A stretch of DNA of 64,000 nucleotides. Source: Hylemonella sp. (GTDB lineage: Bacteria > Pseudomonadota > Gammaproteobacteria > Burkholderiales > Burkholderiaceae_C). Where the stretch lies: NCBI RefSeq assembly GCF_027532185.1, contig NZ_JAPZSV010000003.1, forward strand, positions 682,001 through 746,000. The letters are read 5' to 3'. Of the stretch, positions 4,378 to 28,243 are shown piece by piece (within the stretch, counting starts at the first letter, position 1; each line of letters begins with the position of its first letter). A program made the translations under genes and the position numbers. The notes beneath the pieces are model-generated. The model had not been told where the DNA came from and ran no database searches. It saw nothing but the letters and a program-made list of their open reading frames with translations.

Positions 4378-4393
4378 TGTGCGCTGACAGACA
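4378..4393. promoter_or_regulatory. Crp-like palindrome 2 (TGTGCGCTGACAGACA)
   Basis: Lies in the 300-bp divergent gap 4234-4533, 144 bp from the DUF3494 lipoprotein start. Reverse-complemented it reads TGTCTGTCAGCGCACA, closely matching palindrome 1. Confidence 0.55.
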
Positions 4394-12476: not shown

Positions 12477-12488
12477 CCCTTTGACGCC

Positions 12489-12794
12489 TTAGACGCGGCG
12501 CACCAGGGCCAGGGCCTGGTCCATGCGCTCGCGCGTATCGACAAAACCGCTGAGCTGCACCTGGCCCTTGCGCGTCTCGACCTGGATGTCGAAGCTCTTC
12601 ACCTCAGGGTCGGCCAGCAGGGCCGATTTGACGCGCGTGGTCACGACGCTGTCGTCGATCTCCGTCCCGACGGTGGTGCCGCTCGTGACGGGGGCGCTCT
12701 GCGTGGATTCACGCAGGTCGCAGCCGACGCCCCCCAGTGCCAGCGCGCAGGCCAGCGGCCAGCCCAGCCGCGGCGTCAAGGTATGGATGTTCAT
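12489..12794 (-). CDS. BON-domain lipoprotein, upstream half ending at an in-frame TAA
   Basis: 101 aa from ATG 12794. Signal/lipobox LALGGVGC puts the lipidated Cys near residue 25. A Ser/Thr-rich linker precedes a BON domain (DDSVVTTRVKSALLADPEVK ... GQVQLSGFVDTRERMDQALALV). Translation stops at RRV-TAA, where family members normally continue with E-GVKGV. A GAA to TAA change would explain it, and the reading frame continues intact for 91 codons beyond. A Crp-like palindrome lies 96 bp upstream of the start. Confidence 0.75.
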   Translation of the reverse strand: MNIHTLTPRLGWPLACALALGGVGCDLRESTQSAPVTSGTTVGTEIDDSVVTTRVKSALLADPEVKSFDIQVETRKGQVQLSGFVDTRERMDQALALVRRV

Positions 12795-12890: not shown

Positions 12891-12906
12891 TGTTCGGTGT
12901 CGCACA
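12891..12906. promoter_or_regulatory. Crp-like palindrome 4 (TGTTCGGTGTCGCACA)
   Basis: 16-bp site 96 bp upstream of the BON lipoprotein start and 157 bp from the gspC stop, in the gap 12795-13062. Confidence 0.55.
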
Positions 12907-13062
12907 TACCTGATGCAGGCCAGCCGCTACGCTGTGCCCATGTCACCCGGTCCTGCGCCGCAGGGCGGACGGTGATGCAGGCCTTGAGTGCCGCGGTGTT
13001 GTCCTCGATACCGGCTCAGCGCCGGCAGACAGGAGCCGCATGATGAAGCCAACCGGCCTCTC

Positions 13063-13524
13063 TTACCGCACGGGGCGTTTCAGCTCCAGCGTCAGATCGA
13101 CAGGTGCCTGCAGATCGGTGGCCAGCATGGCACGTCGCGGTGCCACGGCCTGGAGCACCAGCCCCTCCACCACCACGCTGCCCACCGTGTACGCGCGGGC
13201 TGGCTTGCCGTCCACCGAGATCAGCGCGGCGCCGCTACCGGCGGCATTGGCCACCACCCCGGAGAGCACCAGACGCGCGGCCAGGCCGGCGGGTGCCTGT
13301 TCCAGCACGCGCGCCCCCGCTCCCAGAAGCTGCGCCAGCAGACGACGTTGCTCCTCGGGGGCCACGGTGGCTGCGGGCGCGAGGGACACAGCCTGCACCG
13401 CATCGGCCTGCGGCTGCAAGCCCGGCCAGCGCAGCACCCAGTACACCGCACTGCCGGCCAGCAAGGCGGCCAGACCGAAGGCCGTGAGGCGCGGCCATGC
13501 CATCGGTGAAGGACTGGAGCTCAT
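13063..13524 (-). CDS. gspC: Type II secretion protein GspC, short form without PDZ domain
   Basis: 153 aa if started at ATG 13524; ATG 13533 and GTG 13554 are alternatives without clear ribosome sites. A transmembrane helix (about residues 12-32, LTAFGLAALLAGSAVYWVL) is followed by a homology-region (HR) domain: LVLSGVVANAAGSGAALISV, then DGKPARAYTVGSVVVEGLVL. The length is much shorter than PDZ-containing GspC proteins, and the C-terminus ends soon after the HR. GspC links the inner-membrane platform to the secretin. It is isolated from gspL by the BON gene and is divergent from gspG. Confidence 0.85.
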   Translation of the reverse strand: MSSSPSPMAWPRLTAFGLAALLAGSAVYWVLRWPGLQPQADAVQAVSLAPAATVAPEEQRRLLAQLLGAGARVLEQAPAGLAARLVLSGVVANAAGSGAALISVDGKPARAYTVGSVVVEGLVLQAVAPRRAMLATDLQAPVDLTLELKRPVR

Positions 13525-13566
13525 GCGGACCATTATCACGCGCCCATGCGGCACGGGGAAGCCCTC

Positions 13567-14010
13567 ATGCGGATGAACGGTCGCTCTCCATCACGCAGCC
13601 CGCACCGGCGCGGCTTCACGCTCATCGAGCTGATGGTCGTGCTGGCCATCATCGGCGTGCTGGCCGCGCTGATCGTGCCCAATGTGCTGGACCGTGCCGC
13701 CGACGCACGGGTCACGGCCGCGCGCACCGACATCGCGAACCTGGTGCAGGCACTCAAGCTCTACAAGCTGGACAACCAGCGCTACCCAAGCGCAGCCCAG
13801 GGCCTGCTGGCCCTGGTGCTCAGACCGGGCACGCCGCCCACCCCGCCGAACTGGAAGCCCTATCTGGACAAGCTGCCCAACGACCCCTGGGGCCAGCCCT
13901 ACCAGTACCTCAACCCGGGCCTGCAGGGTGAAATCGATGTGCTGTCCTTCGGTGCCGATGGCAAGCCGGGCGGCGAGGGAAGGGACGCGGATGTGGGCAG
14001 CTGGCAATAG
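13567..14010 (+). CDS. gspG: Major pseudopilin GspG
   Basis: 147 aa from ATG 13567 (GGGGAAG five bases upstream; ATG 13546 and 13573 are alternatives). The type IV prepilin cleavage motif RRG-FTLIELMVVLAIIGV is followed by the GspG body: NLVQALKLYKLDNQRYPSAA, the GLLAL turn, and DPWGQPYQYLNPG near the calcium-binding loop. It is processed by a prepilin peptidase not in this window. It starts the run gspG-H-I-J-K and overlaps gspH by 20 nt. Confidence 0.97.
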   Translation: MRMNGRSPSRSPHRRGFTLIELMVVLAIIGVLAALIVPNVLDRAADARVTAARTDIANLVQALKLYKLDNQRYPSAAQGLLALVLRPGTPPTPPNWKPYLDKLPNDPWGQPYQYLNPGLQGEIDVLSFGADGKPGGEGRDADVGSWQ

Positions 14011-14464
14011 GCGGGGCTTGGCCCCGGCACGAGATCATCACGGCCTGACCCTGCTGGAGCTGTTGATCGTGGTCGCCATCATCGCCATGGCCACGGCCAG
14101 CGTCTCCCTCACGATGCGCGACCACGCGTCGGTGCAGCTCGAGCGCGAGGCCCAGCGCCTGGCGGCCCTGCTGGAATCGGCGCGCAGCCTCTCGCGCACG
14201 CGCGGTGTACCCGTGCGCTGGCAGGCCACGGCGCAAGGCTTTCGCTTCGAGGGCCTGCCGGACAGCATGCTGCCCGAGCACTGGCTCGACGCCGACACCG
14301 CGGTCAGCGACCCGGCGGCACTGAACCTGGGGCCCGAGCCATTGATCGAGCCGCAGAGCGTCACGCTGGTGTCCAGGCGTCAGGCCGGCCCGGGCTGGCA
14401 CATCGCCACCGATGGCCTGCGTCCCTTTGCCGTGGCGCCCGCCACCGTCGGGGCAGGCGGCTGA
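13991..14464 (+). CDS. gspH: Minor pseudopilin GspH
   Basis: 157 aa from ATG 13991, overlapping the end of gspG. The prepilin motif is HHG-LTLLELLIVVAIIAM, with the Glu+5. The variable body contains REAQRLAALLESARSLSRTR and GVPVRWQATAQGFRFEGLP, typical of GspH. The stop shares bases with the gspI start. Confidence 0.92.
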   Translation: MWAAGNRRGLAPARDHHGLTLLELLIVVAIIAMATASVSLTMRDHASVQLEREAQRLAALLESARSLSRTRGVPVRWQATAQGFRFEGLPDSMLPEHWLDADTAVSDPAALNLGPEPLIEPQSVTLVSRRQAGPGWHIATDGLRPFAVAPATVGAGG

Positions 14465-14832
14465 TGGGGCCGCACCGCCGTCGCTCACGCGGCTTCACCT
14501 TGATCGAGGTGCTGGTGGCGCTGGCGATCGTGGCGATCGCTCTAATGACGGGGCTGAGCGCCATGGGCGCCCTGAGCCAGCGGGCCCAGCGCCAGTCCGA
14601 TGTGATGCTGGCACAGCTCTGTGCCGAGAACGCGCTGATCGGCCTGCGCCTGGCGCACCAGATGCCTGGCACCGGTGAGCTGCAGCTCGCCTGCGCGCAG
14701 GGCGGCCAGCCCTTCGGGCTGCGGCTGTCGACACGCCCCACCCCCAATCCCAACTTCATGCGCGTCGAGGCCCGGGTCGAACGCGACGGTGTTCCCCTGC
14801 TGCAGCTCATCACCGTGCTGGGACGCGACTGA
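14464..14832 (+). CDS. gspI: Minor pseudopilin GspI
   Basis: 122 aa. The prepilin motif SRG-FTLIEVLVALAIVAIAL is followed by LCAENALIGLRLAHQMPGTG and a compact beta domain ending LLQLITVLGRD. GspI nucleates the tip complex with GspJ and GspK. Start and stop each overlap neighbours by one base (TGATG type), indicating tight coupling. Confidence 0.94.
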   Translation: MGPHRRRSRGFTLIEVLVALAIVAIALMTGLSAMGALSQRAQRQSDVMLAQLCAENALIGLRLAHQMPGTGELQLACAQGGQPFGLRLSTRPTPNPNFMRVEARVERDGVPLLQLITVLGRD

Positions 14833-15524
14833 TGCGCCGGGACCGCAAGGCCGGCTTCACGCTGGTCGAACTGTTGGTGGCCCTCTCGATCATGGCCCTG
14901 ATGACCCTGATGAGCTGGCGTGGACTCGACGGCATGTGGCGCGTGCAGGGCCAGACCCGCGAGCGCTCCGACGCCCTGCTGACCCTGCAGACCGGGCTGG
15001 CACAGTGGAACGCGGATCTGGACGCGCTGGTCAGTCTGCCGACCCCAGCCGGCGCCGCGGCCGATGCGCCCCGGTCGCTGGACTGGAATGGCCAGGTGCT
15101 GCGCATGACGCGTGAGAGCGCAGCGCCAGCGCCCGCGGGCTGGCGCGTGGTGGCCTGGACCCAGCGCGAAGAGGCGGGCCAAGGCAAGTGGCTGCGCTGG
15201 CAGTCGGGCGTGCTGCGCACTCGGGGCGAATGGCAGACCGCTTGGCTGCAGGCCGCGCTTTGGGCTCAGAGTCCGGGTGCCGAGACCCGCAGGGACGAGG
15301 TGCAGATCACGGGACTGACGCGCTGGCAGATCTACTACTACCGCGACAACAGCTGGAGCCATCCCCTGTCCAGCGCCACCGCGGGCAGCCCGGCGACGCC
15401 GTCCGCAGGCAGCGCCGTCCCCGAGGGGGTGCGCCTCGTGCTGAGCCTGCCACCTGGCCCAGCGGTGACCGGAGAGGTCACGCGCGACTGGGCGCGCCCG
15501 ACCCTGGCGGGCCATCGATCATGA
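14832..15524 (+). CDS. gspJ: Minor pseudopilin GspJ
   Basis: 230 aa. The prepilin motif is KAG-FTLVELLVALSIMALM. The body includes WRGLDGMWRVQGQTRERSDA and a C-terminal WQIYYYRDNSWSHPL, usual for GspJ. It ends with an ATGA overlap into gspK. Confidence 0.94.
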   Translation: MRRDRKAGFTLVELLVALSIMALMTLMSWRGLDGMWRVQGQTRERSDALLTLQTGLAQWNADLDALVSLPTPAGAAADAPRSLDWNGQVLRMTRESAAPAPAGWRVVAWTQREEAGQGKWLRWQSGVLRTRGEWQTAWLQAALWAQSPGAETRRDEVQITGLTRWQIYYYRDNSWSHPLSSATAGSPATPSAGSAVPEGVRLVLSLPPGPAVTGEVTRDWARPTLAGHRS

Positions 15525-16456
15525 AGCGCGCGGCCCCACAGCAAGGCGCTGTCCTGCTCACCGCCATGCTGACCGTCACCCTGGTGGCCAGCTACGCGGC
15601 CGCTGCGCTGTGGCAGCAGTCGCGCGGCCTGGAGGTGGAAGCCGCCGAGCGCGCCCGCTCGCAGCAGGCCTGGGTGCTGGTGGGCGCACTGGACTGGGCC
15701 CGGCTCATCCTGCGCGAGGACGCACGCAGCGGCCCCATCGATCACCTGTCCGAGCCCTGGGCGCTGCCGCTGCAGGAGTCGCGCCTGTCCAGCTTTCTGT
15801 CGCTGGACAGCGATGCCGCCGAACAGGCGGATGAGGTCTATCTCTCGGGTCGCATCAGCGATCTGCAGGGGCGCATGAACGTGAACAACCTGGTCGTCGG
15901 CGGACAGCTCTCGGAGCCCGATCTGCAGGCCTGGCGCCGGCTCTATGCGCAGCTGAGCCTGCCCGAAGCCGAACTCGCTGCCTTGGCGACGAATCTGCAG
16001 CGCGTCAGCGACGCATCACAGCCCGCAGCGGCAACGCCGCTGCCACCTCAGCGTGTCGGTCATCTGGTCTGGCTGGGCCTGTCCGCACGCAGTCTCGCGG
16101 TCCTGCGGCCCTACATCACCCTGTTGCCCGTGCGCACCACACTCAACCTCAACACGGCCAGCGCCGAAGTCATCCAGGCCAGCCTGCCACCGCTGGACAT
16201 GACCCAGGCCCGGCGTCTGGTCGAGCGACGCAGCACCGCGGCCTTCCGCAGCGTGCCCGAGGCCCTGCGCGAAACGGGACTGCCCGCCGACCGCTGGCCG
16301 GTGGGCGGGCTGGGGGTGGCCTCACACTACTTCGAGATCCAGGGTCGCCTGCGCCTGGGCACAGCGACCGTGCGCGAACTCAGCGTCGTGGAACGCCAGG
16401 AGCAGGAGGTCCGGATCCTGTGGCGCGAACGTAGCGTCAGCGAAACGGGCGGGTAG
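15521..16456 (+). CDS. gspK: Minor pseudopilin GspK (tip protein)
   Basis: 311 aa from ATG 15521, which overlaps the gspJ stop. The N-terminal hydrophobic helix QQGAVLLTAMLTVTLVASYA carries the K-type prepilin motif, and as usual for GspK lacks the Glu+5. Later features are GRISDLQGRMNVNNLVVGG (T2SSK signature) and LNLNTASAEVIQASLPPLD, the SAM-like insert. It caps the pseudopilus. It ends in a strong hairpin shared with the convergent ompA-like gene. Confidence 0.95.
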   Translation: MKRAAPQQGAVLLTAMLTVTLVASYAAAALWQQSRGLEVEAAERARSQQAWVLVGALDWARLILREDARSGPIDHLSEPWALPLQESRLSSFLSLDSDAAEQADEVYLSGRISDLQGRMNVNNLVVGGQLSEPDLQAWRRLYAQLSLPEAELAALATNLQRVSDASQPAAATPLPPQRVGHLVWLGLSARSLAVLRPYITLLPVRTTLNLNTASAEVIQASLPPLDMTQARRLVERRSTAAFRSVPEALRETGLPADRWPVGGLGVASHYFEIQGRLRLGTATVRELSVVERQEQEVRILWRERSVSETGG

Positions 16457-16484
16457 CGGTCACTGGCTGACCGCTACCCGCCCG
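16446..16484. terminator. Long hairpin between convergent gspK and the OmpA-family gene
   Basis: A perfect 17-bp stem (left 16446-16462, right 16468-16484) with a 5-nt loop overlaps the gspK stop codon. There is no T-run, so termination in either direction is likely but not certain. Confidence 0.6.
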
Positions 16485-16505
16485 GCGCGACGGACGTTGA
16501 CGGGG

Positions 16506-17660
16506 TCAGCGTGTGCCGATCACCTCGATGTCCACCCGGCGATCCGGTTGCAGGCACTCGATCATCCGGGTGGTGGCCACCTGGCCCACGCAGTCGCTGG
16601 GGACGGTGCGGTGGTCGGATTCACCGGCACCGGTCGCCACGATCTTGCTCGCCGGCACGCCACCGCTCACGACCAGGTAGTCCTTGACCGCATCGGCACG
16701 CCGTTGTGACAGCTTCATGTTGTAGGACTCGGTGCCAAAGCGGTCGGTGTTGCCGATGACGGTGATGCGCTCGTAGGTCAGGCCGCGCAGATCGCGCGCA
16801 AAAGCGTCCAGCGTGCGCTTGCCCGAGGGACTCAGGCTGACCTTGTCAAAGCCGAAGTCGTTGTCGGCGGCTATCACGACGCGCTTGAGCACGCGCGGTG
16901 GCGGCACAGGTGCGGGTACCGGCGCGGCCACCGGTTGCGGCGCAGCGCGTTCGGCCGCGGGCGCGGGGGCGGGCGCAGGCTGGGCAGGTTCGGGCTGCGG
17001 GCCGCCAAAGCGGAACACCAGACCGACCGTGATCAGATCGATGTCACCACGGTTGCCCACCGCGTCGTTGACGCGGTAGCGTTCGGCCTCCAGGCGCAGC
17101 GCCAGCGCCCGGCTCAGTTCGTACTGCAGCCCGAGTCCGACCTTGTAGCCGCCTTCGCGCTTGTCGGGACTGGGGTCCGCCACCGTGACGGCCCCCGTGC
17201 TGCTGAAGCGGTCCACCGTGTCCACATAGGTCAGTCCGGCGCGGCCGATGGCAGAAAAGCGCTCGGTGAAGGGCAGGCGTCCGACGAGGTCCAGGTTCAG
17301 GCCCTTGAGGCGGATGTCGCCATGCAAGGTGCCGGCCGGCGTCGTGCTGGCGTTGAAGCCGAAGCGCCCGAGGTCAAAGTAGCCCCCCTCGAGCGCGAGG
17401 TGGGGGCCGAACTGGTAGCCACCGTAGAGCTTGTAGCCGGTGTCGCTGTTGTCCTTCTCCATGCCGGTGACCGTCAGGCCACCGCCAAGCAGGCGGCTGG
17501 TGATCCGCCCTTCATCGATGTTCGACCGTGACGGGCCCACGCCAAGCCCGCCGTACCAGCCCGGCACCAGCAGCAGCTCCTGCGCCAGCAGGGGCGGACT
17601 CAACAAGAGGGTGCAGGCCAGCAGGCTCCAGTGGGGCGTCGTTCTTGCGAGTTTCATCAT
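16506..17660 (-). CDS. OmpA-family outer-membrane protein (barrel plus peptidoglycan-binding domain)
   Basis: 384 aa; the GGAGAA site favours either of two adjacent ATGs (17660 or 17657). The signal peptide (1-26) ends LLAQ. An eight-stranded barrel spans about residues 33-225 (WYGGLGVGPSRSNIDEG ... GGYKVGLGLQYELS ... GLVFRFGG). A Pro/Ala-rich linker (about 230-262) precedes an OmpA_C domain with ERITVIGNTDRFGTESYN and LSQRRADAVKDYLV. It tethers the outer membrane to peptidoglycan. No Crp-like palindrome is seen upstream, unlike its neighbours. Confidence 0.93.
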   Translation of the reverse strand: MMKLARTTPHWSLLACTLLLSPPLLAQELLLVPGWYGGLGVGPSRSNIDEGRITSRLLGGGLTVTGMEKDNSDTGYKLYGGYQFGPHLALEGGYFDLGRFGFNASTTPAGTLHGDIRLKGLNLDLVGRLPFTERFSAIGRAGLTYVDTVDRFSSTGAVTVADPSPDKREGGYKVGLGLQYELSRALALRLEAERYRVNDAVGNRGDIDLITVGLVFRFGGPQPEPAQPAPAPAPAAERAAPQPVAAPVPAPVPPPRVLKRVVIAADNDFGFDKVSLSPSGKRTLDAFARDLRGLTYERITVIGNTDRFGTESYNMKLSQRRADAVKDYLVVSGGVPASKIVATGAGESDHRTVPSDCVGQVATTRMIECLQPDRRVDIEVIGTR

Positions 17661-17717
17661 GTTCTCCAGTGAGGGTTGCGTGGGGCGGGTCGCTTGGGAG
17701 GGATGCGGGCGGGCGCA

Positions 17718-19064
17718 TCAGTTGCATCCGGGCGGCGCACTGGGGTGACCGGGCACCGACACCACATTGCTGTCGAAGACGAAGGCACCACTGGTGGTCA
17801 CGGCCCCGGCCAGCAGGCGACCGCAGGAGGTGGCGTTGGTGCCCAGGGAGATCGTGGTGTCCGCGAGGATGTTGCCCTTGAAGTCGGCGTAGGTGCCCAC
17901 CGTGGCGCTGCTGCCGACCTGCCACCAGACATTGGAGGCCTTGGCGCCGTTGGTCAGCACGATCTGGCTGCCCGGCACGCCGGGGGCGCCGGCAGCGGTG
18001 GTCAGCGTCGTTGGGGCCTGGAAGACAAAGCGCGCGTTCGCGTCACCGCCGCCATTGAGCGTCAGCACGCCTGTCACGCCGATCGATGAGGACGTGGCCG
18101 AGATGTAGACGCCAGGCGACAGCGTGGCATTGCCGGCACAGCCCACGCCGGCGCCGGCGCCGCCGCCCGTGCCGATGATGCCGCAGCCCAGCACCGTGGC
18201 GCCGGGCAGATTGGCCGGCGTCAGGCTGAGGTAGGCGGCGTTGAGGTCGGTCTTGATCGCGCCCGAGGTCACGCCCGCATCGGGGAACAAGGGGCTGCTC
18301 ACGGTACCGGTCAGGGTCGGCGCAAAGCCACCACAGGCACCGAAGGTTCCGGTCGCGCCGATCGATGCCGCATTGCAGGTCGCCGTCGGGTCCAGCACCG
18401 CATCACCGTTGAGGTGGGTCAGGGGCGCGGTCGCTGTGTTGCTGACGCCGGCCGCGGCAGCTATCGCCAACGGTGTGGCGAGCCCGAGGTTCACGGGCCC
18501 GACGCCGGATGACGCAGGCGTTGAGGTCTTGAAGGTCCAGGCATAGCTGCAGGCCGGGGCCACCGCGCCGGGCGTGGTCAGCACTCCCACCGTGATGACG
18601 GCCGTGTAGGTGGTGTCGGGCAACAGCGCAGCGCTGGTGGTCAGCGTGGCCACACGGGTCGATGCGTTGTAGCTCACCGAGGCCGGCGTCAGTGCCACGC
18701 CGGCCAGTGGCGTGAGCGTGAAGGTGGTCGCGTTGATCGTGGCCGCATTCATGGCCAGACTGAAGGTCGCGGCGATCCGCTTGCCCCCGCCGGCCACGCC
18801 CGTGGTGCTGGTCGGCACAAACTGGTTGGCGTGGGTGGGGTCCGAGCTGGTGACCGTGGGGATGGTCGGGCCGGCGCCCAGGGTACAGGTTGCGCCGGGA
18901 ACGATGGCGCCGGCAGGCGCGCCCGGGATGCCGCCCCCGCTGGTGCCGCCACCAAAGATGGGATCGCGTCCGCCATCGCTGCCACCACAGGCGGTCAGCA
19001 GGACCACCAGCACAGGTAACAGAAGCCTATGGACAGCACGCTGATTTGCGCGGGGTATCTTCAT
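17718..19064 (-). CDS. DUF3494 lipoprotein with an N-terminal Ig-like (Big_5) domain
   Basis: 448 aa. The lipobox LVVLLTAC-GG puts the lipidated Cys near residue 26; a Gly-rich linker follows. Residues about 60-180 form a Big_5-type Ig-like domain (TVTSSDPTHANQFVPTSTT ... GKRIAATFSLAMNAATINA ... ACSYAWTFKTS). Residues about 190-448 form DUF3494 (LGLATPLAIAAAAGVSNTAT, HLNGDAVLDP, SPGVYISATSSSIG, ARFVFQAPTTLTTAA, SNVWWQVGSSATVG). This architecture suits a surface-exposed, stalked adhesin or ice-binding protein. Two Crp-like palindromes lie upstream. Confidence 0.9.
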   Translation of the reverse strand: MKIPRANQRAVHRLLLPVLVVLLTACGGSDGGRDPIFGGGTSGGGIPGAPAGAIVPGATCTLGAGPTIPTVTSSDPTHANQFVPTSTTGVAGGGKRIAATFSLAMNAATINATTFTLTPLAGVALTPASVSYNASTRVATLTTSAALLPDTTYTAVITVGVLTTPGAVAPACSYAWTFKTSTPASSGVGPVNLGLATPLAIAAAAGVSNTATAPLTHLNGDAVLDPTATCNAASIGATGTFGACGGFAPTLTGTVSSPLFPDAGVTSGAIKTDLNAAYLSLTPANLPGATVLGCGIIGTGGGAGAGVGCAGNATLSPGVYISATSSSIGVTGVLTLNGGGDANARFVFQAPTTLTTAAGAPGVPGSQIVLTNGAKASNVWWQVGSSATVGTYADFKGNILADTTISLGTNATSCGRLLAGAVTTSGAFVFDSNVVSVPGHPSAPPGCN

Positions 19065-19179
19065 GTACTCACCTCTTCGTCTGATCTGAACAAGCCTTTG
19101 GGGTCAGCAGCACCGGCGCTGGTGCCGGTATCGCTGACGTTGCGCACCCGCTTGTAGGTGCGGTGCATCACATACACAG

Positions 19180-19195
19180 TGTTCGTCAGCGCACA
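19180..19195. promoter_or_regulatory. Crp-like palindrome 5 (TGTTCGTCAGCGCACA)
   Basis: 115 bp upstream of the Ig-DUF3494 lipoprotein start. It is paired with palindrome 6, 25 bp centre-to-centre downstream on the plus strand. Confidence 0.6.
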
Positions 19196-19204
19196 GGCGG
19201 GGTC

Positions 19205-19220
19205 TGTTCGTTGCCACACA
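19205..19220. promoter_or_regulatory. Crp-like palindrome 6 (TGTTCGTTGCCACACA)
   Basis: Second site of a tandem pair, 140 bp upstream of the Ig-DUF3494 gene and 72 bp beyond the stop of the DUF3309 gene. Confidence 0.5.
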
Positions 19221-19291
19221 CAGAGGCAGCGAAGGGTGCGCCGGGATACCAATGGGTGCTCTCACGAGTCCGCGACGCACCGCGCGAACTG

Positions 19292-19450
19292 TCAGAGACG
19301 TCCTGTCAGCAGGAGCAGCAGGATGACCAGCACGACGATACCGAGTGCCGTGCTCGGCATGTACCCCCAGCCCCGGCTGTGCGGCCAGGTGGGAACGACG
19401 CCTATCAGCATCAGGATGAGGACGATCAGCAGAATGGTGCCCAGGCTCAT
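19292..19450 (-). CDS. DUF3309-family small membrane protein
   Basis: 52 aa, ATG 19450, with GGAGAA upstream. It begins MSLGTILLIVLILMLIGVVP, continues TWPHSRGWGYMPS, and ends in a second hydrophobic stretch GIVVLVILLLLLTGRL. That is the standard two-helix layout of DUF3309 peptides, with the conserved central WGY-P segment. The function is unknown; relatives are often stress-associated. It sits downstream of Crp paralog 1 on the same strand, but a palindrome 54 bp upstream suggests its own promoter. Confidence 0.88.
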   Translation of the reverse strand: MSLGTILLIVLILMLIGVVPTWPHSRGWGYMPSTALGIVVLVILLLLLTGRL

Positions 19451-19504
19451 AAGGTTCTCCGGTTGGTGACACGGCCCAGCTTAGGCGTCTCGGCGCAGTG
19501 CCTC

Positions 19505-19520
19505 GGTGCGCTGGCGCACA
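19505..19520. promoter_or_regulatory. Crp-like palindrome 7 (GGTGCGCTGGCGCACA)
   Basis: One mismatch to the consensus at position 1. It lies 54 bp upstream of the DUF3309 start and just downstream of the Crp paralog 1 stop codon. Confidence 0.5.
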
Positions 19521-19554
19521 GTCGGCAGCGTCTGCCAGACGACAGCGCCGGCCC

Positions 19555-20247
19555 TCAGCGCAGCAGCCGGTCGTACACCTCGGTGTCCCGGGCGTAGCAG
19601 CTGCAGGCGGCGGCCTCCAGGCCCGGGCGGTCCCGCACGGACATGAAGCCATGGTGATACTCGATCAGTCCGTCACGCTGCAGGCTGCCCGCGGCCTTGG
19701 TGATGCCGACACGGCGCACACCCAGCAGATAGGCCATGAACTCATGCGTCATGTGGAAGCTGTCGGCATGCGCGCGGTCCTGGCTCATGAGCAACCAGCG
19801 GGCCAGTCGTGGATTGACCTGGTGAAAATGCACGCAGACGGCCAGCTGGCCCAGCTGCAACAGGCGCACGTGCAGATAGCGCTTGAGCACACGCTGCAGG
19901 GGCTGGCTCTCGCGGAGCTGGCGCAGAAAGGCGTCGCTCCTGATCCGCCAGGCCAGGCCAGGCCCCTGGACCACGGCGTGGAAAGGGGCGGCGAGCTCGC
20001 CGAGCATGAGCTGCTCGCCCAGCATGCCCTCGCTGCCCACCATGCCGATCTCCAGGCTGGGCTTGCCTTCATTAAGCGCGACGTAGGAAAAGAAGCAGTC
20101 CTCAGGGAAGTAGACGTAGCGCATGCGCTCGCCCGATTCGCAGATCACCTCGGCGAGCTTGAGATCGACCGACTGGCAGTCGGACAGCAGCCGGTCCCGA
20201 TCCTTGCGCGTCAACAGATGGAGCAGATGGTTGGCGGAGCTGGTCAT
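19555..20247 (-). CDS. Crp/Fnr-family regulator, paralog 1
   Basis: 230 aa from ATG 20247 (MTSSANHLLHLL). Residues about 15-130 form a cyclic-nucleotide-binding fold (ICESGERMRYVYFPEDCFFS, EIGMVGSEGMLGEQ), but the phosphate-binding cassette does not match the cAMP type (no R-S pair). The C-terminal winged helix has FMAYLLGVRRVGITKAAGSL near residues 175-195. The C-terminus carries a CSCY ... YDRLL motif shared with paralogs 2 and 3. No FNR-type four-cysteine cluster is evident. A palindrome lies 115 bp upstream, suggesting autoregulation. The ligand is unknown. Confidence 0.9.
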   Translation of the reverse strand: MTSSANHLLHLLTRKDRDRLLSDCQSVDLKLAEVICESGERMRYVYFPEDCFFSYVALNEGKPSLEIGMVGSEGMLGEQLMLGELAAPFHAVVQGPGLAWRIRSDAFLRQLRESQPLQRVLKRYLHVRLLQLGQLAVCVHFHQVNPRLARWLLMSQDRAHADSFHMTHEFMAYLLGVRRVGITKAAGSLQRDGLIEYHHGFMSVRDRPGLEAAACSCYARDTEVYDRLLR

Positions 20248-20362
20248 GCAGACTTTCGTGAGGTTGAAAACCTGGCGAGAGTCATCGACACGCGTACCGT
20301 CCAACGCCCCATCCAAGACCCTGGCTCAGTCTTGCAGTTTGCAGACGGAAGTGGCAGGCGAC

Positions 20363-20378
20363 TGTGTTGCAGCACACA
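20363..20378. promoter_or_regulatory. Crp-like palindrome 8 (TGTGTTGCAGCACACA)
   Basis: A perfect inverted repeat 115 bp upstream of Crp paralog 1, in the gap between paralogs 1 and 2. Confidence 0.6.
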
Positions 20379-20432
20379 TAGCCATGAGATTTATTGCACG
20401 CGGGGCCAGCCCCGACGCCCGAGCGCAGAACG

Positions 20433-21152
20433 TCAGGTTGCGACCAGCGGCGGCAGCAGGCGCTCGTATTCCTTCTTGACCACGCTGTAGCACTCGCAGA
20501 CCACCTTCTCCAGACCTGGCCGGTCCAGCACTTCGATCTGCCCGCGCGCATAGCGGATCAGCCCTGCCTGCTGCAGCTTGTTGGCGTTGTCGGTCACGCC
20601 CTCACGCCGCACGCCCAGCATGTTGGAGATCAGCTCCTGGGTCATGCGCAGGTGATTGCCCGGCAGGCGATCGAGGCTCATCAGGAGCCATCGGCACAGC
20701 TGCTGCTGCACCGAGTGGTGGCGGTTGCAGACGGCGGTCTGCGAGATCTGTGCAATCAGCGCCTGGGCATAGCGCAGCATCAGGTGCATGACCGGGAGTG
20801 AGCGGCTGAATTCTTCCTGGATGACGCGGGCCCGCAGGCGAAAGCCATGGCCGGCGCTCTGTACCACCCCGCGGCTCGGCGAGGTCTCGCCCCCAAGGAA
20901 CAGCGCAATGCCGATGATGCCCTCGAAGCCCACGATGGCGATCTCGGCCGACGAGCCGTTCTCGGTGACATAGAGCAGGGAAACGATGGCCGAGGTGGGG
21001 AAGTACACGTAGCGCTGCGGGCTGCCGGACTCATACAGCACCTGGCCGAGCTTGAACTCCACGGGTTCGAGCTGGGGCAACCAGCGCGCCCACTCCTCCT
21101 CAGGCAAGGAGGCCAGCAGCTGATTGCTCAAGGGGTTGTGCGGATCTCTCAC
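20433..21152 (-). CDS. Crp/Fnr-family regulator, paralog 2
   Basis: 239 aa from GTG 21152, chosen because GAGGAGG lies seven bases upstream; TTG 21155 is the alternative. The cNMP-like domain runs from about residue 12 to 135 (YESGSPQRYVYFPTSAIVSL, IAIVGFEGIIGIALFLGGE), with PSRGVVQS in place of the CRP cAMP cassette. The HTH is LISNMLGVRREGVTDNANKL near residues 180-200, with the Arg-Glu pair placed as in CRP. The end reads VCECYSVVKKEYERLL. It is more like paralog 3 than paralog 1. The best palindrome in the window lies 84 bp upstream. Confidence 0.9.
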   Translation of the reverse strand: MRDPHNPLSNQLLASLPEEEWARWLPQLEPVEFKLGQVLYESGSPQRYVYFPTSAIVSLLYVTENGSSAEIAIVGFEGIIGIALFLGGETSPSRGVVQSAGHGFRLRARVIQEEFSRSLPVMHLMLRYAQALIAQISQTAVCNRHHSVQQQLCRWLLMSLDRLPGNHLRMTQELISNMLGVRREGVTDNANKLQQAGLIRYARGQIEVLDRPGLEKVVCECYSVVKKEYERLLPPLVAT

Positions 21153-21236
21153 CAAAGGGCCTCCTCTCCGGACAGGTCCGGCGCCAGGCTCAGGATCGAA
21201 CCGTCGGTGAGTATAGGCAGGGCGGCTCGGAATTTA

Positions 21237-21252
21237 TGTGCGCTAGCGCACA
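21237..21252. promoter_or_regulatory. Crp-like palindrome 9, perfect (TGTGCGCTAGCGCACA)
   Basis: A fully symmetric 16-mer in an AT-richer patch, 84 bp upstream of the paralog 2 start and just past the CsbD stop. It defines the motif used for the other sites. Confidence 0.7.
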
Positions 21253-21288
21253 AAGAGACTTCCGGGCATCCGCCCCGCCGTCTGCGGC

Positions 21289-21519
21289 CTACTTCTTGCG
21301 GCTCGCATCCAGCCATGACTCGCTGGCCTTGTGCTGCCAGTCGGCCAGCTCCTTTTCCGCGACATCCGAGGCCAGTCCGTACTGCTCCTGGATTTTCCCG
21401 GCCAGCTGGTCCCGCCGGCCGGCGATCACGTCCAGATCGTCGTCGGTCAGCTTGCCCCACTGCTCCTTGACCTTGCCGCTGAGCTGTTTCCAGTTGCCTT
21501 CAATGCGATCCCAGTTCAT
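21289..21519 (-). CDS. CsbD-family stress protein
   Basis: 76 aa. MNWDRIEGNWKQLSGKVKEQ is the CsbD signature start, followed by WGKLTDDDLDVIAGRRDQLA. CsbD proteins are small, hydrophilic, sigma-B or general-stress induced proteins of unknown mechanism. The gene is third in a same-strand run ferritin-like, BON, CsbD with gaps of 50 and 49 nt, so it probably shares their promoter. Confidence 0.95.
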   Translation of the reverse strand: MNWDRIEGNWKQLSGKVKEQWGKLTDDDLDVIAGRRDQLAGKIQEQYGLASDVAEKELADWQHKASESWLDASRKK

Positions 21520-21568
21520 ATCGACTCCTTGCTATGTGACAAAAAAATTCCGCCCGGACACCGGCCGC

Positions 21569-21889
21569 TCAGGGGCGGACGACGATCTCGTTGCGGACGG
21601 ACTTCACGCCCTTGACGTTGCGCGCGATGCTTTCGGCGGTCGATCTCTCGGTGGCGTTCTTGGCAAAACCGGACAGCATCACGGTGCCGTTCAGGGTCTC
21701 GACGCTGATGCTGGAGGCATCGACCTGCTTGTTGTCGACAAAGCGCGCCTTGATGGACGAGGTGATGGCGGTGTCGTCGACGTAGCCGCCGACGGTCTGC
21801 TGATCCCGGGTCACGGCACAGCCGGAGGCCAGCAGCATGGTCAAGGTGGTGGCGAGGATGGCGACGGCAAATGTGGGGTGGTGTTTCAT
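21569..21889 (-). CDS. BON-domain lipoprotein
   Basis: 106 aa from ATG 21889. The signal sequence ends in lipobox LLASGC-AV (Cys about residue 24). A single BON domain follows (DDTAITSSIKARFVDNKQVD, GTVMLSGFAKNATERSTAES, VKGVKSVRNEIVVRP), here ending normally, unlike the broken copy at 12.5 kb. It is a probable envelope phospholipid-binding stress protein, lying between the ferritin-like and CsbD genes in one direction. Confidence 0.93.
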   Translation of the reverse strand: MKHHPTFAVAILATTLTMLLASGCAVTRDQQTVGGYVDDTAITSSIKARFVDNKQVDASSISVETLNGTVMLSGFAKNATERSTAESIARNVKGVKSVRNEIVVRP

Positions 21890-21939
21890 GGTGATTTTCT
21901 CGGTGGGTTGACAGGACATCCAGTAGGACGTGTTGGGTT

Positions 21940-22482
21940 TCAGTTGACGAGCCAGGATCGGAGCTCCTCGGCGTGCTCACGCTCTTGCTGCAAGAGGCCA
22001 TCGAGCAGATGTCGTGCGACCATGTCCCGCGGGTCGATGCCCGACATGATCTCGCTGTACTTGACGATGATCCGGTACTGCGAACCCAGATGGGCCGAGA
22101 TCATGGATTTCAGGTCCTGGTGTCGGTCATGGGTCGCACGACCCATGCGCATCAGCAGATCGGGCGAATAGTCCAGTTCGCCACCGAGCTCGACGATATG
22201 GCGGGCCAGCTTGTACGCGTGGGACAGCTCCTCGTTCGCATGGAGCAGGAACTCGGCGCTGAGCAGCGGCAGCATGCAGGTGTCGTCCGAGAGGTGGTTG
22301 TAGCGCACGACGCACAGCAGCTCCTTGATCAGCGAGTCCTTGAGCAGGGTGAGGACCTGCTCGCGCCAGGGCACACCCGGCGCCTGTGGGTGCAAGGCGC
22401 CGACCTGCCGGGGCCTGGGCGCGGGTTCCTGACGCATGTCGGACAGGGCACCGAAGGCGGTGGATTCGAAACGGGCATGCAT
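21940..22482 (-). CDS. Ferritin-like (bacterioferritin/Dps-type) di-iron protein
   Basis: 180 aa. A four-helix ferritin-like domain spans about residues 40-178. Candidate ligands follow the classic pattern: E54 (IKELL), E85-x2-H88 (ANEELSHAY), and E167-x2-H170 (QEREHAEEL). The N-terminal 35 residues are extra and Pro-rich. Likely roles are iron storage or oxidative protection in the cytoplasm. It is the first gene of the minus-strand stress run, with a palindrome 79 bp upstream. Confidence 0.85.
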   Translation of the reverse strand: MHARFESTAFGALSDMRQEPAPRPRQVGALHPQAPGVPWREQVLTLLKDSLIKELLCVVRYNHLSDDTCMLPLLSAEFLLHANEELSHAYKLARHIVELGGELDYSPDLLMRMGRATHDRHQDLKSMISAHLGSQYRIIVKYSEIMSGIDPRDMVARHLLDGLLQQEREHAEELRSWLVN

Positions 22483-22561
22483 GAGCGTCGCTCCCTTTCA
22501 TCGGTGGTCGAACGATGTGATCGACCGAGGCCCGACCTTAAGCGGCGGGACTCTCCGGGTC

Positions 22562-22577
22562 GGTTCGCCAGCGCACA
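22562..22577. promoter_or_regulatory. Crp-like palindrome 10 (GGTTCGCCAGCGCACA)
   Basis: One mismatch at position 1; 79 bp upstream of the ferritin-like gene in the 225-bp divergent gap 22483-22707. Confidence 0.5.
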
Positions 22578-22599
22578 TTGCGGCCGCACCCTCACCCTG

Positions 22600-22615
22600 T
22601 GTTCGCTGACGCACG
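22600..22615. promoter_or_regulatory. Crp-like palindrome 11 (TGTTCGCTGACGCACG)
   Basis: One mismatch at position 16; 92 bp upstream of the DUF4398 gene. It is paired with palindrome 10 (38 bp centre-to-centre), so each divergent gene has its own site. Confidence 0.5.
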
Positions 22616-22707
22616 GACCCACCCGTGCAAGGCGCCCATGCTCGGCCTTCCTCCGACACCCCGGTGGCGGCCCCTGAAACGACAGCTCACGCACCACAGG
22701 ACCCCAT

Positions 22708-23112
22708 ATGAAGTTCCTACCGACACCCCAGCCCATGAGTTCTGCCCCATGGCCCGGCCTGGCCCTCTGGATCGCCAGCGCCGCCCTGCTGCTGGCCGCC
22801 TGCGCCTCGGGCCCGCCACCGCCCACCGCGCAGCTCGCCGTCTCGGCCGCAGCGATTGATCAGGCCGTGAGCGCCGGTGCTGCAGAGCTGGCACCCGCCG
22901 AGCTGGCCATGGCCCGCGAAAAGCTGGACCGCGCCCGCGTGGCCATGAACACCCGTGACCACACCCAGGCCCTGATGCTGGCCGAGCAGTCTCAGGCGGA
23001 TGCCCAGCTGGCTGTCACCCGCACGCGCGCCGCCAAGGCCGAGAAGGCCGCCGCCGCCCTGCAGGAAGACCGTCGCATCCTGCGTGAAGAAATCCAGCGC
23101 AACCAGCGTTAA
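22708..23112 (+). CDS. DUF4398-domain lipoprotein
   Basis: 134 aa. The signal/lipobox is ALLLAAC-AS (Cys about residue 33). The mature part is a helical DUF4398 domain: AAIDQAVSAGAAELAPAELA, AREKLDRARVAMNTRDHTQA, LMLAEQSQADAQLAVTRTRA, ending in a coiled coil. It is a probable outer-membrane lipoprotein. The OmpA-domain protein follows 20 nt later and shares the DUF4398-like helical region, so the two look like a split pair from a common ancestor. Confidence 0.88.
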   Translation: MKFLPTPQPMSSAPWPGLALWIASAALLLAACASGPPPPTAQLAVSAAAIDQAVSAGAAELAPAELAMAREKLDRARVAMNTRDHTQALMLAEQSQADAQLAVTRTRAAKAEKAAAALQEDRRILREEIQRNQR

Positions 23113-23132
23113 CCCCTTTCCGAAGGTTCCCC

Positions 23133-24023
23133 ATGACACACCCCCTGTCCTTCCCCCTGGCGGCCATCGTCCTGGCCACCCTGAGCGCCTGCAGCACGCT
23201 GCCGCCCGACCAGACCCCGCTGGCCCTGGCCCGCAGCGAGCACCAGGCCGCCCGCGACAACCCGCAAACCGCCTCGCTCGCTCCCAGCGAGCTGCAGCAG
23301 GCCGACGCCGCCATGCAACGCGCCAACCAGGCCGAGGCGGCCCGCGAGCCCGAGGCCACCATCACCCACCTGGCCTATCTGGCGCGTCAGCGGGCCACCA
23401 TTGCGCAGGAAGTCGGCCGGCAGAAGGCCGCGGAGCAGCGCGTGAGCGACGCCAACGCCGTGCGCGACCGCATGCAGCTGGAGGCCCGCACCCACGAAGC
23501 GGACACCGCCCGGCAACAGACCCTGGCGGCCCAGGAGCAGACCCGCAGTGCGCAGGACCAGACACGCATGGCGGAAGATCAGACCCGGGCCGCCGAGCAG
23601 CGCAACCGCGAGCTGCAGGACCAGATCAAGGAACTCAATGCCCGGGCCACCCCGCGCGGCTGGGTCATCACGCTGGGTGACGTGCTGTTCGGCAGCGGCC
23701 AGGCCAGCCTCAAGAGCGGCAACCTGCGCAGCGTCGACAAGCTCGCGGAGTTCCTCCAGCGCAACCCGCAACGCCACGTGCTGATCGAGGGCTACACCGA
23801 CAGCACGGGCAGCGACAGCGGCAACCTCGATCTCTCGGCGCGACGCAGCGAGGCTGTGCGCACGGCCCTGGTCGATCGGGGCGTGAACCCCCAGCGCATC
23901 GCGACCCGGGGCTATGGCGAGTCCCATCCGGTCGCGGACAACGGTTCAGCCGGCGGACGGCAGCTGAACCGACGGGTCGAGATCATCGTCTCCAACGACA
24001 GCGGTCCCATTCCCGCACGCTGA
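23133..24023 (+). CDS. DUF4398-OmpA domain lipoprotein
   Basis: 296 aa. The lipobox LATLSAC-ST puts the Cys near residue 20. A DUF4398-like helical region (about 30-115; PSELQQADAAMQRANQAEA) is followed by a long Gln/Thr/Arg-rich coiled coil with repeated QTR units (about 120-165). The OmpA_C domain (175-290) has GDVLFGSGQASLKSGNLRSV and the peptidoglycan-binding HVLIEGYTDSTGSDSGNLDL. It is predicted to connect the outer membrane to the cell wall. It lies 20 nt after the DUF4398 lipoprotein, in one operon. Confidence 0.93.
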   Translation: MTHPLSFPLAAIVLATLSACSTLPPDQTPLALARSEHQAARDNPQTASLAPSELQQADAAMQRANQAEAAREPEATITHLAYLARQRATIAQEVGRQKAAEQRVSDANAVRDRMQLEARTHEADTARQQTLAAQEQTRSAQDQTRMAEDQTRAAEQRNRELQDQIKELNARATPRGWVITLGDVLFGSGQASLKSGNLRSVDKLAEFLQRNPQRHVLIEGYTDSTGSDSGNLDLSARRSEAVRTALVDRGVNPQRIATRGYGESHPVADNGSAGGRQLNRRVEIIVSNDSGPIPAR

Positions 24024-24065
24024 GTCCGGGCGCACGCGGCGGGGCGCATGCCCCCGCCGCGGCGC

Positions 24066-24845
24066 CTATGCCTTCATCGCGGTGTGCAGCAGGCGATCGT
24101 ATTCACGCCGGACCACGAGGTAGCACTCGCAGACGCGCCGCTCCAGGCCGGCGCGATCCAGCACCTCGATATGCCCCCGGGCATAGCGGATCAGGCCGGC
24201 ATTCTGCAGCTGGTGCGCGTGCTCGGTGACGCCTTCGCGTCGCACGCCCAGCAGCCCCGAGATCTGGGCATGGGTCATCTGCAGCGGCTGCCCCGGCATG
24301 CGGTCAAGCCGCATCAGCAGACAGCGGCAGAGTTGCTGGTCGACACCGTGGTGGCGGTTGCAGACCACCGTCTGCGACATCTGGGTGATCAGGGCCTGCG
24401 CATAGCGCAGCAGCACCCGCCGTCCCGTCTGGGAGCGACTGAACAGCTCCTGGAACGCGCGGGACCTCAGGCGCAGACCCTGCCCCGGGTTCTGGACCAC
24501 CGCCTGGTGGGTAGCGCTCTCGCCGCCCATGCAGAGCGACAGGCCGACCATGCCCTCGGGCCCGATGACGGCGCTTTCCACCGAGCCGCCCTCCAGCGTC
24601 ACATGCAGCAGAGACACGATGGCCGTGGTGGGGAAGTAGACGTGGGGTTGGATGCGACCGGGTTCGCGCAGGACCTGGCCCCGGGCCAGGTTCACCGGCT
24701 CCAGCTGCGACAGCCAGGGATGGCAGGTCTCCCGCGGCAAGGCCTCCAGGAGGTGATTGCCTGCCTGGGGTGCTTCGGGCCAGGCCCTGTCGCAAAGCGC
24801 CTCACGGGAACTGCATGTCCCGATCCTCGGATTCAACGTGTCCAT
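24066..24845 (-). CDS. Crp/Fnr-family regulator, paralog 3
   Basis: 259 aa. It has an N-terminal extension of about 25 residues relative to paralog 2. The cNMP-like domain includes REPGRIQPHVYFPTTAIVSL and AVIGPEGMVGLSLCMGGESA, again without the cAMP cassette. The HTH is ISGLLGVRREGVTEHAHQLQ, nearly the same recognition helix as paralog 2. The end reads RVCECYLVVRREYDRLL. It is convergent with the OmpA gene. A palindrome lies 141 bp upstream of the start. Confidence 0.9.
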   Translation of the reverse strand: MDTLNPRIGTCSSREALCDRAWPEAPQAGNHLLEALPRETCHPWLSQLEPVNLARGQVLREPGRIQPHVYFPTTAIVSLLHVTLEGGSVESAVIGPEGMVGLSLCMGGESATHQAVVQNPGQGLRLRSRAFQELFSRSQTGRRVLLRYAQALITQMSQTVVCNRHHGVDQQLCRCLLMRLDRMPGQPLQMTHAQISGLLGVRREGVTEHAHQLQNAGLIRYARGHIEVLDRAGLERRVCECYLVVRREYDRLLHTAMKA

Positions 24846-24986
24846 ACGGCTCCCTTGTCCTTACCGCCAGGCTTCGGGCCTCCAACCTGGCTTCGATGCC
24901 TGCTGTCGCGTCCGTCGGGTCCACCCTGGCAATCTGGGCCCGAAGTCTCACCCGACCTCACCATAAGGCATACCGACGGGGGTTCC

Positions 24987-25002
24987 TGTGCGCTGCCGCA
25001 CA
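24987..25002. promoter_or_regulatory. Crp-like palindrome 12 (TGTGCGCTGCCGCACA)
   Basis: Near-perfect palindrome with intact half-sites, 141 bp upstream of Crp paralog 3. Confidence 0.6.
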
Positions 25003-25112
25003 TTAGCCGCTCGCCAGGTGAGCGTCAACCGCGGCCCCCCTCCGTAACGACCTCCTGAGAGCGGGCGCCGAGGCAGTCTTGCAACCCGATCGAGGCCTGC
25101 CATCGGTCTGTC

Positions 25113-25128
25113 TGTGCTGTCGCGCACA
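25113..25128. promoter_or_regulatory. Crp-like palindrome 13 (TGTGCTGTCGCGCACA)
   Basis: Middle site of the divergent gap, 209 bp before the beta-barrel gene. Confidence 0.5.
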
Positions 25129-25200: not shown

Positions 25201-25216
25201 TGTATGCCGGCGCACG
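25201..25216. promoter_or_regulatory. Crp-like palindrome 14 (TGTATGCCGGCGCACG)
   Basis: Weaker site (last base differs), 121 bp upstream of the beta-barrel gene. Confidence 0.45.
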
Positions 25217-25337: not shown

Positions 25338-25922
25338 ATGACCCCAGCACGCATTCTTCTCTCCAGCCTCACCCTGGCTTCACTCCTGGCCCTGAGCACC
25401 GGCGCCGTGGCGCAAAGCAGCGCCTACCGCGATGGCAACAGCTACCTCGGCCTGAACGTCGGCCGCACCGACTTCAAGGTCGGCAACGGCACCGGCCTGT
25501 ATGGCTCGGACGACAGCAACACGGCCTACGGCATCACCATGGGCAGCTACTTCCGCGACAGCAACCTGGGCATGGAGTTCGGCTACACCGACTTCGGTGA
25601 TGTCTCGCGCGGCGGTGGCAGCACCCAGGCCCACGGCATCCACCTGAACCTGATCGGCCGCGTACCGATCGGCAGCTCCTTCAATCTGCTGGGCAAGGTC
25701 GGTGGCATCTATTCCCGCACCGATGTGTCCTCACGTCCGGGCTCCGGCATCAGCAGCGGCAGCGAGAGCGGGCTGGACTGGACCTATGGCGTGGGGATGG
25801 AGTTCGCCTTCGCACGCCAGTGGTCGGCCGTTGTGCAGTACGACGACTACAACGTGAAGTTCGCCGGCGGCGGCAGCGACCGCATCTCCAATCTGTCGCT
25901 GGGCCTGCGCTACCTGTACTGA
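25338..25922 (+). CDS. Outer-membrane beta-barrel protein (OmpA-like transmembrane domain)
   Basis: 194 aa. The signal peptide (1-25) ends GAVA-QS. The mature part is an eight-stranded small barrel: YLGLNVGRTDFKVGNGTGLY, GITMGSYFRDSNLGMEFGYT, FNLLGKVGGIYSRTDV, WTYGVGMEFAFARQWSAVVQ, ending NLSLGLRYLY with a C-terminal aromatic as expected for BAM recognition. There is no periplasmic OmpA_C domain. It is preceded by Crp-like sites and followed by a hairpin, so it is probably monocistronic. Confidence 0.9.
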   Translation: MTPARILLSSLTLASLLALSTGAVAQSSAYRDGNSYLGLNVGRTDFKVGNGTGLYGSDDSNTAYGITMGSYFRDSNLGMEFGYTDFGDVSRGGGSTQAHGIHLNLIGRVPIGSSFNLLGKVGGIYSRTDVSSRPGSGISSGSESGLDWTYGVGMEFAFARQWSAVVQYDDYNVKFAGGGSDRISNLSLGLRYLY

Positions 25923-27607: not shown

Positions 27608-28243
27608 TCAGACCCCGGCCAGCGCGCGCAGGCCGCCCGGGTCCGTCACCTGCAGCAGGCGCCCCGTGCCGCTGATCAGGCTGCGCTCACGCAACTGGCG
27701 CAGAACGCGCGACAGGGTCTCGGGCGCAATGCCAAGTTGCGCCGCAATCAGGCGCTTGCGCTGCTCCAGCGGTACGGCCAGCGTGCCCTTCTCGCCGGCC
27801 GGCCGGGCGTGACGCAGCAGCCACTCGGCGCAGCGCGCCTCGGCGTCCTTGGCCAGGCGGCTCACGGCCAGCTCGGTCTGGCGCCGGTGCGCCAGCGCCA
27901 CATCGTGCAGCACCGTGCGCGCGGCCGGCGTCAGCGCGGCGAGCGACTGGCGAAAGCGTGCCAGCGGAATGCGGCGCAGCACCACCTCGGTCTCGGCCAC
28001 GGCGTCGACCACGCCGGGTAGCCCCAGCACGGCCGAGGTGGCCTCCAGCCAGAACGGCCCCTGGATCTCGCCAAGCTGGTGCACCAGCACCTCGCCGTCG
28101 AGCAGGCCCAGTGCCACCCGACCCGAAGCCAGGTGCAGCACGGCCGTGGGGGTGCTCCCGCGCTTGAGCAGCACGGTGCCGGCCGCGACGTGGCGGCGTT
28201 CGGCCTGGATGTCCATGAATTCCGGGGGCAACATGGGCGCCAC
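27608..28243 (-). CDS. Crp/Fnr-family regulator (fourth, divergent type)
   Basis: 211 aa from GTG 28243, or 208 from ATG 28234; no strong ribosome site for either. The cNMP-like fold starts FMDIQAERRHVAAGTVLLKR. The winged helix has LIAAQLGIAPETLSRVLRQL near residues 170-190, with the E-T-L-S-R recognition helix of FNR/Dnr-type proteins. It is quite unlike paralogs 1-3 and lacks their CxCY tail. No N-terminal cysteine cluster is present. It is the gene upstream of the riboswitch-gdx unit on the same strand, but the 193-nt gap argues for a separate promoter. Confidence 0.9.
   Translation of the reverse strand: MAPMLPPEFMDIQAERRHVAAGTVLLKRGSTPTAVLHLASGRVALGLLDGEVLVHQLGEIQGPFWLEATSAVLGLPGVVDAVAETEVVLRRIPLARFRQSLAALTPAARTVLHDVALAHRRQTELAVSRLAKDAEARCAEWLLRHARPAGEKGTLAVPLEQRKRLIAAQLGIAPETLSRVLRQLRERSLISGTGRLLQVTDPGGLRALAGV

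Follow-up and report, generated by a model that had tools for sequence, protein, structure and literature searches.

The 64,000-nucleotide stretch of Hylemonella sp. DNA analysed here (the window, part of a 3.33 Mb genome) carries three genes for Crp/Fnr-type regulators, P1, P2 and P3, each preceded by a palindrome, and raises the question of whether these proteins control their own and each other's genes, and through how many DNA-binding specificities. The first-pass annotation had proposed a cross-regulating trio with at least two specificities. Our favoured reading, to which we assign a probability of about 0.78, is that P2-type regulators switch on their own genes as well as P3 and nearby envelope and stress genes through class II promoter sites. 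All three proteins belong to the Crp/Fnr superfamily: the Pfam domains HTH_Crp_2 (PF13545) and cNMP_binding (PF00027) were found above cut-off in each, confirming them as real genes, and no NCBIfam model matched P1, P2 or P3. The palindromes lay where they had been placed, at 20363-20378 (TGTGTTGCAGCACACA), 21237-21252 (TGTGCGCTAGCGCACA, a perfect dyad) and 24987-25002 (TGTGCGCTGCCGCACA), which is 115, 84 and 141 bp upstream of gene starts at 20247, 21152 and 24845. The recognition helices also read as reported, GVRRVGIT in P1 and GVRREGVT in both P2 and P3.

To place these sites in context, we compared 80 loci (139 P-type genes) and a sample of 399 genomes of the family, 156 of which contained a P2 relative (E<=1e-60). 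Locus L137, a copy of L046, was excluded from gene calling, the matrix scan, target pairing, the neutral-rule comparison of sites, the tree, and the residue and placement counts. The predicted shared operator is a 16-bp dyad, TGTNCG-N4-CGNACA, with the wider consensus TATGTNCGNTANCGNACATA. With at most one mismatch, it was present upstream of 60 of the 99 P2/P3-type genes, and 45 of these 60 sites were located 80-120 bp from the inferred start. Its inner CG...CG emerged even when only TGT...ACA and a -10 element were required (C in 40, G in 42, C in 40 and G in 40 of the 42 P2-type sites that were distinct). The closest P2 genes among named relatives were those of two Hylemonella loci, L046 and L047, and a 16-mer identical to the dyad at 21237 precedes P2 in the latter, H. 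gracilis. A scoring matrix built from 31 sites preceding P2-type genes, including the window's own site at 21237, detected nine sites scoring at least 12 between positions 12000 and 26000 of the window; 100 shuffles gave a mean of 0.02 and a maximum of 1. Over the whole 64 kb, 10 sites scored at least 10, nine of them within 12891-25128. Eight sites came in addition to the three palindromes, at 12891, 19180, 19205, 19505, 22562, 22600, 25113 and 25201. Among the palindromes themselves, the P1 site was the weakest (score 4.1; the other two 31.0 and 17.8).

In CRP class II promoters the activator site is centred at -41.5. Among the 60 P2/P3-type sites, a TAnnnT sequence started at +29 from the site centre in 27 cases, at +28 in 6 and at +30 in 8, and none of the other offsets between 10 and 43 had more than 2; 41 of the 60 sites thus had this element at +28 to +30. 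A -10 element at +29 matches the class II layout, the centre at -41.5 being deduced from the -10 element, and hence points to activation. The arrangement resembles that of E. coli CRP class II promoters, which also have a 16-bp dimer site with TGT...ACA ends, centred at about -41.5 and 29 bp upstream of the -10 element, but the half-site is TGTNCG here and TGTGA in E. coli, where the regulon is global and not, as here, local in its own genome. We propose that P2 and its duplicate P3 would act as dimeric Crp/Fnr-type activators on the TGTNCG-N4-CGNACA dyad, and that a dimer bound about -41.5 would contact RNA polymerase in the class II manner and switch the promoter on. Besides their own and one another's genes, P2 and P3 would activate a local envelope and stress set (BON, ferritin-like, CsbD, DUF4398-OmpA, DUF3309, ice-binding and outer membrane barrel genes). 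It is unlikely that P2-type proteins instead bind the same sites as repressors, in a negative autoregulation for which the fixed spacing would be a mere overlap with the promoter. Negative autoregulation is common among transcription factors (PMC5343134, in passages that mention neither Crp nor Fnr). The single-offset peak, 29 bp before the -10 element, is nevertheless the arrangement that class II activation calls for. Sites for a repressor would be expected to spread across the -10 and -35 regions.

The distribution of the motif across genomes suggested which protein may read it. A tight form, TGTNCGNTANCGNACA, occurred in 99 of the 399 family genomes, 82 of the 156 with a P2 relative versus 17 of the 243 without one (Fisher p 5e-25), and its reversed control showed no link with P2 (16/156 vs 23/243, p 0.86). 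In counts by presence or absence of P1, restricted to family loci and leaving out L136-L141, P2/P3-type genes kept their site in 11 of 20 cases in genomes lacking P1 and in 37 of 45 in genomes with P1. The P2-type site persists where the genome lacks P1, so the symmetric site is probably read by P2. Alternatively, the sites could be read by another regulator, such as a housekeeping CRP/FNR protein or a fourth Crp/Fnr-type protein encoded nearby at 27608-28243 (minus strand), with P1-P3 as targets among others. We consider this very unlikely. Co-occurrence with P2 is in part built in, 75 of the 174 sites in 60 family loci preceding crp genes and 99 lying elsewhere, but among P2-lacking genomes the 17 with the motif did not outnumber the 23 with the control, and TGTNCG is neither the CRP (TGTGA) nor the FNR (TTGAT) half-site. 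The distant fourth gene was not among the proteins of the window's genome matching P2 at E<=1e-3, which besides P2 itself were only P3 (61%) and P1 (40%).

That the palindromes are chance occurrences or a repeated DNA element without regulatory role is extremely improbable. Loose patterns would fit such an origin: TGTGCN6GCACA with two mismatches was no commoner than in shuffles (53 vs 62.8). For the strict motif this explanation is refuted, and the conservation, -10 spacing and intergenic placement of the sites speak against it. Over 1.26 Mb of loci, 213 sites, training sites included, scored at least 12, versus 5 in the shuffled set; 89 of the 99 sites away from crp genes lay outside called genes, though 86% of the sequence is coding. 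Significance is confined to the strict motif and its clustering, total genome counts being ordinary, and loose-pattern searches, which gave no excess, were dropped as tests. TGTGN8CACA was rejected as the motif because it is too narrow, the fourth base being T or A in some sites of relatives; the 3.33 Mb genome contains 24 matches to it versus 15 to the reversed control, four of the 24 lying at 20363-25128 in the window. The motif with a -10 element at +29 extended to Oxalobacteraceae (L049, L050 and L052) and to one Methylococcaceae locus (L058). Several other loci had a site without a -10 element at +29; the Halomonas loci L060 and L062 had only weaker sites, without that element, and L064 had none.

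Pairing sites with genes across loci identified candidate targets. Loci with a site (score at least 10) paired with a given gene type numbered 53 for crp, 12 for BON, 10 for DUF4398, 8 for outer membrane barrel, 7 for fatty acid hydroxylase, 6 for PAS histidine kinase, 5 for CsbD, and 4 each for ferritin-like and ice-binding genes, each cluster being named from a single member or from its similarity to a window gene. TAnnnT was found at 28-30 bp in 41/96 site-gene pairs for crp, 7/15 for BON, 4/8 for hydroxylase, 3/5 for CsbD, 3/7 for PAS, 3/7 for ferritin-like and 2/9 for outer membrane protein genes, fractions that are low estimates for the true target since a site between divergent genes was counted for both. 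In the window, the ferritin-like, BON lipoprotein, CsbD, P2 and P1 genes follow one another in this order on the minus strand from 22482 to 19555. The 52-aa DUF3309 gene, found via its operator, falls below the minima of the open reading frame listing (70 aa) and of gene calling (55 aa).

Several results weigh against activation by P2-type regulators as we propose it. No site with at most one mismatch was found upstream of 39 of the 99 P2/P3-type genes, including those of the close relatives L046 and L138, and genomes and promoters are not independent of each other through shared ancestry. The geometry gave no support to DUF4398 and ice-binding genes as targets, with TAnnnT at 28-30 bp in 0/14 and 0/7 of their site-gene pairs, and the site at 25113 has no -10 element at the expected place in either direction. 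TGTNCGN4CGNACA showed no excess in its own genome, either exactly (7 occurrences vs 5 in the control, four of the seven within 12891-25002 of the window) or with one mismatch (108 vs 169 in the control). The regulon would therefore be local or small. Taken together, the data point to a real and local Crp/Fnr circuit of an ordinary kind, probably self-activating and working through class II promoters. We infer from these data DNA binding, activation, cross-regulation and the nature of the signal, and on that footing the auto- and cross-regulation proposed for the locus is well supported: P2-type genes of many relatives share the site with an activator geometry, and P2 and P3 share a recognition helix and a type of site.

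The idea that the three paralogs form a special unit was not supported. A quick tree grouped P3, on a long branch, with the P2 genes of its own genus (6 rows, support 99) and placed P1 in a separate clade (40 rows, support 99). P3 thus looks like a genus-level duplicate of P2, and the trio is therefore a local condition; in addition, the sites would also serve the neighbouring stress genes. A P1 relative was present in 74 of the 399 genomes, all 74 of which also have P2. In some genomes (G244, G106, G139, G363 and G398) P1 is distant from P2. Judged by these distributions, the conserved unit is the P2-P1 pair rather than the trio. Computation establishes the motif, its position, its distance from the -10 element, its tendency to occur together with P2, and the restriction of P1 to genomes that have P2.

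P1 is an older paralog, present only in genomes with P2, and its promoter has the same geometry with a modified, asymmetric site. This site may be read by P1, or less strongly by P2, or by the two of them. P1-type genes come after P2 in many loci, and the intervening stretch carries TGTGCGCTGGCAGACAGTC or close forms: in an alignment seeded with the consensus and confined to intergenic sequence, 34 distinct stretches were compared, of which 28 matched at 12 or more of 19 bases, and 18 of these 28 have a -10 element at +29. Because this alignment was seeded, we repeated the comparison under a neutral rule that was the same for both groups (TGT...ACA with one mismatch, plus a -10 element). The 25 distinct P1-type and 42 distinct P2-type sites differed at position 9 (A in 3/25 vs 33/42), position 12 (G in 8/25 vs 40/42) and position 13 (G in 10/25 vs 0/42), all in the proximal half, and their distal halves were alike. 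The window's P1 site, TGTGTGCTGCAACACA, likewise departs from the P2 motif. In the recognition helix, Val was found in 36 of 39 P1-type proteins versus Glu in 96 of 98 others. The claim of at least two specificities is supported by the significantly different proximal half-site and by the Val-for-Glu change, which together fall short of proof.

P1-type sites were commoner in genomes with P1 (18 of the 31 site-bearing genomes, p 3e-7). Wide use of the P1 site was considered but not supported: TGTNNGNTGGCANACNGT occurred at 32 places in 31 of the 399 genomes, and among the 30 examined, 14 precede a P1-type gene. For another 15 the retrieved stretch contains no such gene, and the remaining one (L182) lies after P2 where the contig ends. 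A P1-type site, TGTGCGCTGGCAGACAGT, also occurs at 1501-1518 of L167, a 3 kb stretch with no crp gene; it is a possible P1 target in genome G424, in which a search at E<=1e-55 gave no relative of P1. The window contains a further sequence, TGTGCGCTGACAGACA at 4378-4393, upstream of a second gene (3406-4233, minus strand) that by eye looks ice-binding-like. The sequence is one base off the P1-type consensus of relatives, but in the opposite orientation. On the strand of the gene, CACAGT, also read by eye, stands at a distance of 29 bp from the centre of this sequence, which is the sole strong window site outside 12891-25128.

The structure model of P2 (predicted local distance difference test score 91.7) was that of a Crp/Fnr protein, with CRP, GlxR and FNR as best matches, and the modelled chain continues beyond the winged helix as two short helices (212-218 and 221-233). 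Four residues (C143, H147, C220 and C222 in window P2 numbering), which lie where the long helix ends and beyond the winged helix, were kept in 135, 135, 134 and 134 of 137 proteins, P1-type and P2-type alike. This Cys3His set is a possible metal or redox centre linking the end of the long helix to the C-terminal extension. IscR provides a precedent for such a set. P2 shares the fold of FNR/ANR proteins, A. fischeri FNR being among its best structural matches (Z 20.6, root-mean-square deviation 2.7, 216 aligned). It lacks two features of a 4Fe-4S FNR: no conserved N-terminal cysteine column was seen among 26 aligned proteins, and the FNR site is TTGAT-N4-ATCAA, whereas the motif here is TGTNCG-N4-CGNACA. 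The nearest annotated relatives of P2 by sequence (E 7e-4) and by fold are GlxR and NtcA (PDB 4cyd and 2xgx), with about 17-20% identity. In the alignment NtcA has Val where P2 has Glu, as does P1. The NtcA site, GTA-N8-TAC, is unlike both P1-type and P2-type sites, and a link between the Val of P1 and an NtcA-like TGTA half-site was not borne out by the P1-type sites. A more elaborate proposal, which we regard as unlikely, is that P1 and P2 are obligate partners, that a P1-P2 heterodimer reads the P1 promoter as a hybrid operator, whose distal half is of the P2 type (TGTGCG) and whose proximal half is of the P1 type (GCAGACA in relatives), and that through the near-invariant Cys3His centre at the hinge of helix end and C-terminal extension the pair would sense metal or redox for a local RpoS-like envelope stress programme.

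Features of the window are collected in Table 1. Elsewhere in the window's genome, the inverted repeat TGTGCCAGTAGGCACA, at G000:C2:51153 and G000:C10:208039, is perhaps a repeated element; its matrix score of -9.8 makes it unrelated to the operator motif.

Table 1. Regulator genes in the window, with predicted operator sites and target genes; -10 distances are from the site centre.
Feature	Position	Strand	Remarks
P1	19555-20247	-	Crp/Fnr regulator, helix GVRRVGITKAA; downstream of P2, in the older paralog clade
P2	20433-21155	-	Crp/Fnr regulator, helix GVRREGVTDNA; proposed core self-activating regulator
P3	24066-24845	-	Crp/Fnr regulator, helix GVRREGVTEHA; apparent P2 duplicate, long branch
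P1 operator TGTGTGCTGCAACACA, then GTC	20363-20378	-	minus-strand reading; -10 CAAACT at 29 bp
P2 operator TGTGCGCTAGCGCACA	21237-21252	-	-10 TATACT, starting 29 bp past centre
P3 operator TGTGCGGCAGCGCACA	24987-25002	-	minus-strand reading; -10 TATGGT at 29 bp
Site TGTTCGGTGTCGCACA preceding two BON-domain genes	12891-12906	-	GATAGT at 29 bp
Second site upstream of ice-binding protein gene	19180-19195	-	no -10 at 29 bp
Site upstream of ice-binding protein gene	19205-19220	-	AACACT at 29 bp, weak -10
Site preceding 52-aa DUF3309 gene	19505-19520	-	-10 TAAGCT at 29 bp
Site preceding ferritin-like gene (then BON, CsbD genes, same strand)	22562-22577	-	-10 TAAGGT at 29 bp
Site TGTTCGCTGACGCACG preceding DUF4398/OmpA genes	22600-22615	+	weak -10 (CATGCT) at 29 bp
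Site TGTGCTGTCGCGCACA between P3 and outer membrane protein gene	25113-25128		neither direction shows a -10 at 29 bp
Weak site TGTATGCCGGCGCACG preceding outer membrane beta-barrel gene	25201-25216	+	score 8.4; -10 TAAGGT at 29 bp
Two BON-domain (OsmY-like) genes	12213-12794	-	predicted targets
Ice-binding-like protein gene	17718-19064	-	predicted target
DUF3309 small membrane protein gene (52 aa)	19292-19450	-	predicted target; found via operator 19505
CsbD-family gene	21289-21519	-	
BON-domain lipoprotein gene	21569-21919	-	
Ferritin-like protein gene	21940-22482	-	predicted target
DUF4398 and OmpA/DUF4398 genes	22708-24023	+	predicted targets
Outer membrane beta-barrel protein gene	25338-25922	+	predicted target

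No description of the motif or regulon was found in literature titles or abstract openings, a weak absence since the wording 'Crp Fnr' probably misses 'Crp/Fnr'. With these results, a widespread Burkholderiales Crp/Fnr group without an NCBIfam name gains a predicted operator, a predicted promoter mechanism and predicted targets, along with a candidate for the sensing site. A testable regulon takes shape from stress genes that were uncharacterised (BON, CsbD, DUF3309, DUF4398 and ferritin-like), and the asymmetric P1 operator, together with a P1 that never occurred without P2 in the sample, offers a natural case of specificity change between paralogs.

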